From Thermodesulfobacteriota bacterium (lineage in GTDB: Bacteria; Thermosulfidibacterota; Thermosulfidibacteria; Thermosulfidibacterales; B14-G1): a stretch of 35,001 nucleotides of DNA. The notes beneath the pieces are model-generated. The model saw only the letters and a program-made list of their open reading frames with translations. It searched no databases and was not told the origin of the DNA. This document shows, one piece after another, positions 24,042 to 27,840 of this stretch; position 1 is the first letter of the stretch; each line of letters starts with the position of its first letter. Position numbers and translations under genes: made by a program. The DNA is taken from NCBI GenBank assembly GCA_024274915.1, contig JAJSAC010000018.1, positions 1 to 35,001 on the forward strand, given 5' to 3'.

Positions 24042-24327
24042 TCTGAGAAGTTCTCTCCTTATCGCAACTCCCCTGTTTTTTGATCATTGTTTTCTAAATA
24101 TCTTGAATAGAAAAAATCAATTTTATTTTTCCAGTGGTGGCCTGTATATATATGGCAGATGGCATTGTGAATTAAGGCGCATGTGGTGGTGGGCTGCAGG
24201 TGGTTATTAGAATATTCTAATGGCATCATTAATAGGAAAGGGGGGTGGTAGTGAAGGGATGGGAGATTTGTGTTGAATTGTCGTTGTGTTTGACGAGATT
24301 TCGATGGAAACCGGAGGGGAGGTGGAG
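24042..24327 (+). other. AT-rich intergenic region upstream of the cytochrome operon
   Basis: This 286-nt gap is clearly more A/T-rich than its surroundings and has no convincing gene. It holds poly-A/T stretches around 24105-24135, a TATATATA run near 24145, and the 16-bp palindrome at 24206-24221. A TTGATC/TTGAAT pair with 17-nt spacing near 24081-24109 is a weak promoter candidate. No clear terminator for the rodZ-like gene was seen. Confidence 0.5.
24206..24221. promoter_or_regulatory. Perfect 16-bp palindrome, candidate operator of the cytochrome/porin operon
   Basis: ATTAGAATATTCTAAT is a perfect inverted repeat about 107 nt before the cytochrome start, in the otherwise gene-free AT-rich gap. 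Its size and symmetry suit a dimeric transcription factor site. It does not match the FNR/CRP, CIRCE or classical Fur consensus well. No regulator gene lies next to it. Confidence 0.45.
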
Positions 24328-25449
24328 ATGAAAGAGTGTCGATGGAAGGGTTTTTCTTTTCTTTTGGTGGTCTCAGTCCTTGTGGTGTTTTCGGTGGGGG
24401 CCTGTACTTCCATGAAAGAGGCGAAGAAGGAGGCTGAGAATGCTAAAGTCCCCGTTGTTGAGGGGGCGAAGTATGTGGGCTCTGGGGCGTGTGCCGATTG
24501 CCACGAGGGCATTGTGGAGGACTTTAAAAGGACCATTCACGGTAGGATCGCCGGTTTTGAAGTCAAGCCCAACATGGTGGCCGAAGGCTGCGAGGCCTGT
24601 CACGGTCCCGCCAGCAAACATATCGAAGAGGAGGACCCGGCTTATATTCTCAATCCTGCCAAGCTGGAGCCTGCTCAAGCTTCGGCTATCTGTTCTCGTT
24701 GCCACACTGATGGCGAGATCATGGACTGGCGGGGTTCTGAGCATGCCTTGAACGATGTCTCCTGTGTAAAGTGCCACACCATCCACGGCAAAAAGGACAA
24801 AATGGCCTACAGGGAGAAGCTGGGTTATCGCCACAAACACGTGAAGGATACTCTCCTGAAGAGGCCCGAGCCCGAGCTGTGCTTCACCTGTCATAAGGAG
24901 ATCATGGCCAAGACCAACTACCCCAATCACCATCCCGTGAAAGAGGGCAAGATGACCTGCTCCGAGTGCCACAATCCCCACGGTTCCATAGTGGAGCCCT
25001 TGCTCAAGACCGATGAGACCTTGAACGAGCTTTGTTACAAGTGTCATGCGGACAAGGAGGGGCCCTTTGCCTTCGAGCATGCCCCTGTGGTGGAGAACTG
25101 CACCATCTGCCACGATCCCCACGGCAGCGTGGCCGACAATCTTCTGAAGCAGAACGAGCCCTATATATGTATCCAGTGTCACGGCCTTCACTTTCATTCG
25201 GCCATTCGGCCGGACACCAATTATATCGTTAATAACCAAGAGCCTGGGCACAGTTGTCCTCCTGGATTTGCATGGAATCCAGATCCTAATACAGGAGGTC
25301 CGGGATGTGCCCCTGCCGTTGTGATGCCTAACTCCCATGCCATGCAGATGGTCATGACTACCAGGTGTACCGAGTGTCACTCTGCCATTCACGGATCTGA
25401 TCTGCCATCCCTGGCCACTCCGGGTGGCGGTAGCAGACTAACGAGATAA
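24328..25449 (+). CDS. Decaheme c-type cytochrome lipoprotein, DmsE/MtrA family
   Basis: 373 residues with exactly ten CXXCH heme sites, at Cys55, 88, 122, 146, 185, 211, 236, 258, 281 and 347. The spacing and the closing CTECHSAIHGSDLPS block match DmsE/MtrA-type decahemes, which carry electrons across the outer membrane inside an MtrB-type porin. The N-terminus is a lipoprotein signal (VVFSVGAC, lipid Cys26, next residue Thr). Family members are normally soluble periplasmic proteins, so a lipid anchor is a difference. Between hemes 9 and 10 is an insert of about 60 residues with two extra cysteines (Cys310, Cys327). ATG 24328 follows GGAGGTGGAG. The porin gene starts 11 nt downstream. Confidence 0.93.
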   Translation: MKECRWKGFSFLLVVSVLVVFSVGACTSMKEAKKEAENAKVPVVEGAKYVGSGACADCHEGIVEDFKRTIHGRIAGFEVKPNMVAEGCEACHGPASKHIEEEDPAYILNPAKLEPAQASAICSRCHTDGEIMDWRGSEHALNDVSCVKCHTIHGKKDKMAYREKLGYRHKHVKDTLLKRPEPELCFTCHKEIMAKTNYPNHHPVKEGKMTCSECHNPHGSIVEPLLKTDETLNELCYKCHADKEGPFAFEHAPVVENCTICHDPHGSVADNLLKQNEPYICIQCHGLHFHSAIRPDTNYIVNNQEPGHSCPPGFAWNPDPNTGGPGCAPAVVMPNSHAMQMVMTTRCTECHSAIHGSDLPSLATPGGGSRLTR

Positions 25450-25460
25450 GGGGGGAGAAG

Positions 25461-27779
25461 ATGGTAAGGAGATGGATACTGGTGGTGCTCTTGGCTCTTT
25501 CCCTCCCCCTTCTGGGAATGGGAAGGGTTTTTGCAGGGGAAGGTGGCTCTGCTAAGATCAAGGTGGATGTGACTCCTGGGTACCACTTCGTCGGCCACGA
25601 CGACGAGATGACCAAGGTAGGAGAATATGAGTCCTTATCCTCAGGTGCCCAAGGAGAGGTGAAGATCAACGCCGATATCGGTCTGTTCAAGGCCGACGTA
25701 CATGCCTTCTACTATGACGAAGATGAGAAGGAGTGGTCGGCTAATCTCGACTTCGGCAGGGTGTTCAGGGTCGATTACTCTTATGATAGTTTCCTCCACA
25801 GACTTCAGCACGATTATCTCTATAGGGACGAGCCCAGGTTTCCCAAGAATATTCCCCCCAATGGGGTAAACAACGGTTTGGTGGCCTTCAACCCCTTCTG
25901 GAGAACGGATGCTCCTGGTGAAACTTTTGATGGTGAACCTCGCCTTGGCGGTGCTCAGATGGTGGCGGCCGACGATTTGGATGTGGGCAGGGACTACCAG
26001 ATCTTCAGGAGCCACCAGCAGGCTCATGTGAAGGTGCAGATGCCCTTTTTCCCCTACATCGTGCCTGAGTTCAGGGTTTCCGAGGAGAACAAGAGAGGAT
26101 GGAGACAGGCTACGTTTATGTCCGGTAAGTGCACTCCCTGTCACATTGTTGGTGTGGGACGCAGGGTGAACGAACATACCCGGGATGTGACGGCAGGTTT
26201 CACTGCCAAGTACGGCATTGTTACTGCCAGCTACTTCCACACCTGGCGCCACTTTGACAATGAGGCTGAGACGCCTCGGTGGACATTTGACAATGTTTAT
26301 GCACCCCCCGAAGAAATGACTTTCTTCCCTCAGAGGCTCATGTACGATGGCGAAAGGGGTGGATACGCCGAGGTTCCCGATGTGAGGAAAGACACGGACA
26401 AGGTGAAGGTGAGAGTGGATTTGCCCTATCACACCACTGTTTATGCTTCTTATGTCAATTCGGATGTGGAGAATAACTATACTAGCAAAGACTATGGGTT
26501 TGACGCCTATGCAGGTAGGGTCACGAGTACATTGCTGGGCAATGCCCTTACTGTAACTCTTAAAGGTCGCTATTACACCATAGACAATGACGATGTGTAT
26601 GTGGATATTGGCTCCATGTCCAATGATAGCACGGTTGCTGGACCTGGTTATGGTGTGCCTTCTTCTTATTTCGATTATACCCGGAAATCCAATATGAGCA
26701 GGGACGTGACGGAGCTGGGGATCAGTTTCCGCTACAGGCTGGCCAGGCATTACACTGTACGGGCGGGCTATGAGTACACCCGGATAAACCGTGAGAATGA
26801 GAAGTGGAAGGACTATGATTCTTATCTCTACGACGACAGGTTCCTGGATGACGAAGATACCACCATCCATAAGGTTAAAGTGAGCCTTCTGGGTAGGCCC
26901 TTCAGGACTCTCCAGTTCAGACTTACCTACAAGTACGAGCATCAGAAAGACGAATTTGAGAATCACAATGGTATCTGTCTTGAACACAGAGATCTGCCAA
27001 AACCTGGAGGCATTCCTTACTATGAAATATTCAGGAACCAGTACCGTGGAAAAGATGCCTCCAACGTGCCTCAGGACACTCACGACTTGACCTTGGTGAC
27101 TACCTGGACTCCTTCTGGTCGCTATTCTGCCACTTTAAACCTGAAGTACAAGTATCAGGACAACGATGACTCCGACTGGGAGGGCCAGGTCTATATGGCA
27201 GGCATCAACTTCTGGGCTTCTCCTTTGAATAATCTGGTTTTCAACCTGGGGGCAAGCTACGAATACGACACCTATGAAACCCGCTTCGACCTGAACCTGT
27301 TCGGTGGGTGAGGCGGCCACAGCTTCGTGAGCCAGGTTGGCTCACTTTGTGACAAGGTGGACTACGATGTTAAGAACTTCGTGGCATATCTGAGCGCGGA
27401 CTTCACTCCTATCAAGAATCTCAGGGTTTACGGCGACCTCACCTACACTTGGTCCAAGGCCGATGCCGATAACCCTCACTTTGGGAATCCTTTTGGTGTG
27501 ATAGACATTGATGGTCATGAGGGACCAAGTTACAAGCCCGGTTATGATCCCTGGTTCATTATCACCTATACTGGTGACATGGACGACATGTCCGACTGGT
27601 ACGATTTGAAGATGGAGCGGGTGGATGCCTCTTTGGGATTCGGCTGGAACTTCTGGAAGAATTTCACCGTCACCACCAGGTTCACTTACCGCTGGTATGA
27701 CGATGAAGAGGAGTACCTCTATGAGGATACCGATGGTGAGGCTTACATCATGAACGTGGGTCTCGTGTGGAAGTTCTGA
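25461..27779 (+). CDS. MtrB/PioB-family outer-membrane porin with one in-frame TGA (putative selenoprotein)
   Basis: 772 residues if the TGA at 27309-27311 (codon 617) is read through. The signal peptide ends near VFA-GEG (residue 25). The rest is alternating beta-strands with long acidic loops, ending NVGLVWKF; the final Phe is the outer-membrane beta-barrel signal. Barrels of this type sheath a decaheme cytochrome, here encoded just upstream. The frame is the same on both sides of the TGA, the barrel pattern continues, and no ribosome-binding site precedes the first start after it (GTG 27327). A SECIS-like hairpin follows. Codon 617 falls in a predicted extracellular loop with Cys630. A CXXCH motif (Cys224-His228) also occurs. 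Alternatives are a nonsense mutation or a sequencing error. Confidence 0.85.
27318..27351 (+). promoter_or_regulatory. Candidate bacterial SECIS element inside the porin gene
   Basis: GTGAGCC (27327-27333) and GGCTCAC (27339-27345) form a perfect 7-bp stem closed by loop AGGTT (27334-27338). CACA (27318-27321) and TGTG (27348-27351) can add a lower stem across a small internal loop. The loop begins 22 nt after the in-frame TGA at 27309-27311. Bacterial SECIS elements are known to sit just downstream of the Sec UGA, with a G-containing apical loop; E. coli fdhF has loop AGGUCU 17 nt from its UGA. The bulged U of the E. coli stem is absent. The element is coding throughout. Confidence 0.6.
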
Positions 27780-27808: not shown

Positions 27809-27840
27809 GAGCCGGAGGCCAAGGCCTCCGGCTCCTTTTT
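27809..27840 (+). terminator. Strong intrinsic terminator of the cytochrome/porin operon
   Basis: A perfect 12-bp G/C-rich stem (27809-27820 with 27823-27834), loop AA, is followed by CTTTTT. It lies 29 nt after the porin stop, which supports the view that the TGA-split frame is a single gene at the end of this unit. The sequence TTTTGACAAG occurs directly before and directly after the hairpin (27800-27809 and 27837-27846). Confidence 0.93.

Follow-up and report, generated by a model that had tools for sequence, protein, structure and literature searches.

Gene organisation of the locus

The window, meaning the whole stretch of 35,001 nucleotides that was analysed, carries a two-gene unit in which a decahaem cytochrome gene is followed, 11 bases past its end, by the gene of a porin (Table 1). 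Translation confirmed what the initial annotation had stated, namely that the porin frame is broken only by one internal TGA, at codon 617. Read through this codon, the frame encodes 772 residues, with a signal peptide at the N-terminus and, past the TGA, the expected aromatic beta-signal at the C-terminus (...NVGLVWKF). Open reading frame listing splits the gene into two halves, 25461–27311 and 27327–27779. The GTG codon at 27327, which opens the second half, does lie in a hairpin, as first annotated, and provides its first base; the accompanying statement that it has no ribosome-binding site needs amending, as a GAGG is found 13 nt before it, which is too distant for a convincing Shine-Dalgarno sequence.

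Table 1. Features of the porin-cytochrome locus, with positions given in the window.
Feature	Position	Strand	Basis
Decahaem c-type cytochrome, GSU2203/OmcK family NF041028, DmsE/MtrA-like	24286–25449	+	10 CXXCH; NF041028 score
Likely cytochrome start, ATG 24328	within 24286–25449	+	
Selenoprotein porin, GSU2204 family, MtrB/PioB fold, 772 aa, Sec617	25461–27779	+	frame, NF041027, PF11854, 6R2Q_B
His113 codon, predicted outer strand end	25797–25799	+	alignment, strand topology
CTPCH, residues 224–228, c-haem motif at predicted extracellular hairpin tip of porin	26130–26144	+	alignment, topology
UGA for Sec617, loop FGG-U-GGHSFVS	27309–27311	+	homologous sites, Ka/Ks
SECIS-type hairpin, 7 bp, AGGUU loop	27327–27345	+	covariation
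True stop codon TGA	27777–27779	+	other window genes also end in TGA
Terminator-like stem, intrinsic type, 11 bp then T run, closes two-gene unit	27809–27834	+	pattern match only

Family membership and prior knowledge

Both products score well above the cut-offs of a known pair of families. The porin reaches 503.9 to 505 bits (cut-off 350) against NCBIfam NF041027, the "GSU2204 family CXXCH-containing (seleno)protein", with a match that stops at residue 616, one before Sec617, and the CXXCH motif expected of this family is present as CTPCH. The upstream cytochrome, with its 10 CXXCH motifs, scores 463.6 bits (cut-off 325) against NF041028. Furthermore, PF11854 matches the porin at 30.8 against a gathering score of 23. 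The model of classical MtrB/PioB proteins, TIGR03509, gives no match to the porin at E 0.01, and a homologue (L020) obtains 33 bits where 240 are required; the protein is therefore described as an MtrB-fold porin and not as a classical MtrB.

The initial annotation knew of no described selenoprotein in this family, a view which has to be withdrawn, since NF041027 models exactly such a family and an MtrB/PioB selenoprotein appears in reviews of 2022 and 2026 (PMC9312934, PMC13188914). The main text of the 2008 GOS paper, to which both reviews refer for the family, mentions no porin, barrel or cytochrome. The selenocysteine porin family is thus already catalogued, and the gene in the window adds a member from another bacterial group. 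The Desulfobacterota placement implied at first is likewise doubtful, the nearest named records being Aquificota or simply "bacterium", with a kinship list that passes from the same order directly to the same domain.

Conservation of the in-frame UGA

After identical sites had been collapsed, 56 distinct homologous sequences were available at codon 617, among which 53 have TGA, two have TGC (Cys; L065 and L069) and one, the diverged homologue L094, has GGA (Gly). This is the outcome of the alignment by which the first proposal of selenocysteine was to be judged. The homologues obtained by searching 98 related genomes carry one TGA each, and its position is constant down to ca. 30% identity, within a motif of the type [FY]-x-[GAN]-U-[GA]-G. 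All 53 Sec sequences have Gly as residue 616. Wider searches yielded homologues in other phyla, including 44 positive genomes out of 395 in the large phylum of L030. A plasmid DNA search gave no match.

Were the TGA a real stop, produced by nonsense mutation or sequencing error, the locus would be a pseudogene or would contain a short downstream frame starting at GTG 27327. The use of TGA to terminate other genes in the window agrees with such a reading, as does the GAGG mentioned above, but the same TGA is shared by 53 distinct homologues, which come from several phyla and from assemblies independent of one another. Purifying selection downstream of the codon equals that upstream, with Ka/Ks to the nearest homologue of 0.061 on either side, values which are rough as synonymous sites are near saturation. 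Further in-frame stops are rare in the porin family, and a product of the downstream part by itself would amount to a piece of a barrel lacking a signal peptide. Nonsense mutation and sequencing error were rejected on the conservation of the TGA and, because this conservation in place is joined by equal purifying selection on both sides, stop, pseudogene and error are regarded as excluded, with a very small residual probability.

A second alternative, in which UGA is reassigned throughout the genome, for example to Trp, Gly or Cys, and is not recoded locally, draws on the position of the codon in a Gly-rich stretch (GGUGG). Here too the evidence is opposed: TGA closes the porin gene itself and many other genes within the window, from which it follows that the code is not reassigned; the genome contains the full selenocysteine machinery; and Cys is the commonest substitute among the homologues. 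Genome-wide recoding was accordingly rejected on the TGA stops at gene ends, and it ranks as the least probable reading considered.

Some members of the family depart from the common pattern. The Cys versions L065 (G434:C87) and L069 (G714:C2) share the motif [FY][VI]GCFSES, lack the hairpin, adjoin their own decahaem genes and occur in genomes also holding a Sec paralogue. An extra in-frame TAG or TAA beyond the TGA is seen in L095 (G488:C1) and L075 (G750:C87), possibly decaying copies or errors, while the homologue L032/L063 (G388:C109) has another in-frame TGA close to its C-terminus, in a part where the alignment is lost and a frameshift is possible.

The SECIS-type hairpin

Downstream of the UGA lies the hairpin GUGAGCC-AGGUU-GGCUCAC, with an apical loop that starts 22 nt after the UGA and that reads AGGUU or AGUUU in the family. 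Among 30 distinct homologues aligned gap-free, 80.5% of cells are paired, as opposed to 63.9% in shuffles, and none of 500 shuffles is as high. Six of the seven pairs display changes on both sides, and the pairing score drops when the partner column is slid by one to three positions. A clear instance is provided by L014, where a stem C is changed to G and the partner codon from Gly to Ala, restoring the pair. About seven homologues, with a hairpin centre shifted by approximately one base, were excluded from this pair count.

Comparison with synonymous recodings gives a similar picture, as none of 400 recodings of the window hairpin folds as well and p falls below 0.05 in 32 of the 53 Sec sequences. 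The Cys and Gly homologues have no hairpin (recoding p 0.70 to 0.98). The conserved hairpin adjacent to the UGA on which the initial proposal depended is therefore found as a covarying stem, missing where Sec is replaced. Only the local stem stands out, the 60-nt fold as a whole being of no unusual stability (z -0.40), and an Rfam scan of the window and the selB locus returned no family at the gathering threshold.

Selenocysteine machinery

The source genome holds the complete set of selA, selB, selC and selD, all four of the genes that had been suggested as a check. On contig C46, selB is directly adjacent to selA; a tRNA-Sec with anticodon TCA is encoded on C43; and selD, on C41 (G000:C41:19995-20918, L091), has an in-frame TGA of its own, so that SelD is probably itself a selenoprotein. 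Elsewhere, SelB was found over the cut-off in 15 of 18 other genomes having homologues or close kinship, and ARAGORN detected tRNA-Sec in 12 of 15 tested genomes. It found no convincing tRNA-Sec in G006, G007 and G008, of which the first two have SelB. G008, a MAG with a stated completeness of 90%, harbors several TGA porins (L014, L018, L020), yet searches of it gave no SelB and no convincing tRNA-Sec, possibly because contigs are missing or the machinery has been lost. Two SelB-like genes over the cut-off per genome are present in G714 (C2) and G494 (C25, C36); the second in G714 (C2:677348-678433) is a partial model match, with the Cys-type porin (C2:679956) approximately 1.5 kb away.

Cys in two homologues, the selABCD set and a covarying hairpin uphold the original assignment of Sec to codon 617 in a porin of MtrB/PioB type, and incorporation of Sec there is regarded as practically certain. 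That the frame as a whole encodes a true selenoprotein belonging to the GSU2204 (MtrB/PioB-fold) family is given a probability of approximately 0.85.

Barrel fold and conserved residues at the predicted outer face

A fold search was employed because searching PDB sequences with the A1 profile gave no match up to E 1. The AlphaFold2 model, built from 36 homologues with Sec entered as Cys (pLDDT 80.8), finds its best solved match in chain B of 6R2Q, the MtrB of the Mtr complex, with Z 28.1 and an rmsd of 3.0 over 566 aligned residues, the next-best structural match reaching Z 17.5; Foldseek assigns the MtrB fold at E 6.9e-22. Counting between short turns of periplasmic type, the predicted model has 26 membrane strands, which is the number in the MtrB barrel.

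In the predicted topology, strands 7 and 8 flank the CXXCH motif and strands 21 and 22 the Sec loop (614–624), both hairpins lying on the long-loop side and both with the longest strands. This side of the model is presumably extracellular. In the order of the strands, 14 of 26 separate the two hairpins, which hence lie roughly opposite each other on the rim. Residues invariant in the 36-sequence alignment are H113, D118, P195, G213, C224, C227, H228, P306, K310, K316, S410, G616 and U/C617, with a single Arg exception to His113 in the wider set. Strand topology places H113, D118, C224, C227, H228, P306, K310, S410, G616 and U617 at or near outer loops and, because most of the invariant residues sit at or near this end, a functional site on the outer face is pointed to. 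His113, at the outer end of a strand, is a possible haem ligand.

Two specific roles of Sec617 can be weighed on these grounds. The first, raised in the initial annotation, is a selenenyl-sulfide formed with a nearby Cys as a redox switch on the cell surface. Cys630 is 13 residues past Sec617, and in many homologues the Cys is found at -7 instead; among the 53 Sec sequences, however, Cys is at -7 in 33 and at ca. +10 to +16 in 10, and 13 contain no Cys within -12 to +17. Cys630 itself is thus not a conserved partner and, since the nearby Cys residues are not conserved, the alignment makes a Sec617–Cys630 bond unlikely as a general feature, although a partner Cys may come from elsewhere in the barrel. 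Overall, a surface switch of this kind is judged improbable.

In the second, Sec617 would be an axial ligand of, or would touch, the putative c-haem attached to the porin at C224xxC227H228. Few features are as strictly conserved as the haem motif and the Sec, each of which is placed in an outer hairpin with long strands, but these hairpins are opposite by strand order, such that both would have to fold over the lumen, and the near-invariant His113 is an alternative candidate for the ligand. Contact between Sec and haem is accordingly held to be doubtful.

Proposed porin-cytochrome conduit

A decahaem gene adjoins the porin in nearly all related loci. At the locus itself an MtrC-type outer-surface cytochrome is absent, the flanking genes being RodZ-like, dehydrogenase-like and GlnE. 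In Geobacter, transcripts of GSU2203 (named OmcK) and GSU2204 are induced on haematite and magnetite (PMC4070692).

The arrangement is most likely a two-gene porin-cytochrome conduit, bearing at its outer end an eleventh haem and a selenocysteine. Sec617 would be inserted at the UGA with the aid of the hairpin at 27327–27345 and of SelA, SelB, SelC and SelD. The porin would associate with the decahaem cytochrome encoded upstream, its 26-strand barrel sheathing a wire of ten haems, while the eleventh c-haem would be attached to one extracellular hairpin of the porin (C224xxC227H228), with Sec617 in another. Electrons would leave the periplasm along the ten haems and so reach the outer haem, and Sec617, as a redox-active or metal-binding residue at the outer exit, would hand them to or from an external partner. 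This last role, redox or metal-binding in transfer to an outer partner, is put forward tentatively, at somewhat less than even odds. A further suggestion, that the barrel-attached eleventh haem and Sec617 form a catalytic outer site replacing the surface cytochrome of Mtr-type systems, with Sec617 perhaps ligating the haem or acting as the terminal electron-transfer residue, is speculative and has a low probability.

Selenocysteine is costly, yet in this porin family it has been kept almost without exception across several phyla, alongside the haem motif, and this implies that selenium has a chemical role where the conduit opens to the outside. If Sec is indeed a terminal electron-transfer or metal site, the view of such porins as passive sheaths would change.

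Comparison with known systems

The barrel fold and the decahaem partner encoded alongside are shared with MtrB of Shewanella (6R2Q chain B). In contrast, identity to this protein is only ca. 14%, the porin in the window carries a haem motif and Sec, and its locus, unlike that of Shewanella Mtr, is without an adjacent MtrC-type gene. The SECIS element of E. coli fdhF is a hairpin downstream of the UGA with an apical loop of the GGU type, a description which also applies to the porin hairpin, while the stem sequence of the latter differs and is without an Rfam match. The pentahaem cytochrome ExtKL of Geobacter (NF040886; PMC5877670) is similarly a predicted selenoprotein tied to outer-membrane electron transfer, but is a cytochrome and not a barrel porin. 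With the GSU2204 (NF041027) and GSU2203/OmcK (NF041028) system, the pair has in common scores above both cut-offs, the CXXCH motif, adjacent cytochrome and porin genes, and a Sec that follows directly where the pt_1 model of NF041027 ends; it differs in nothing essential, being a pair of the same kind from another bacterial group.
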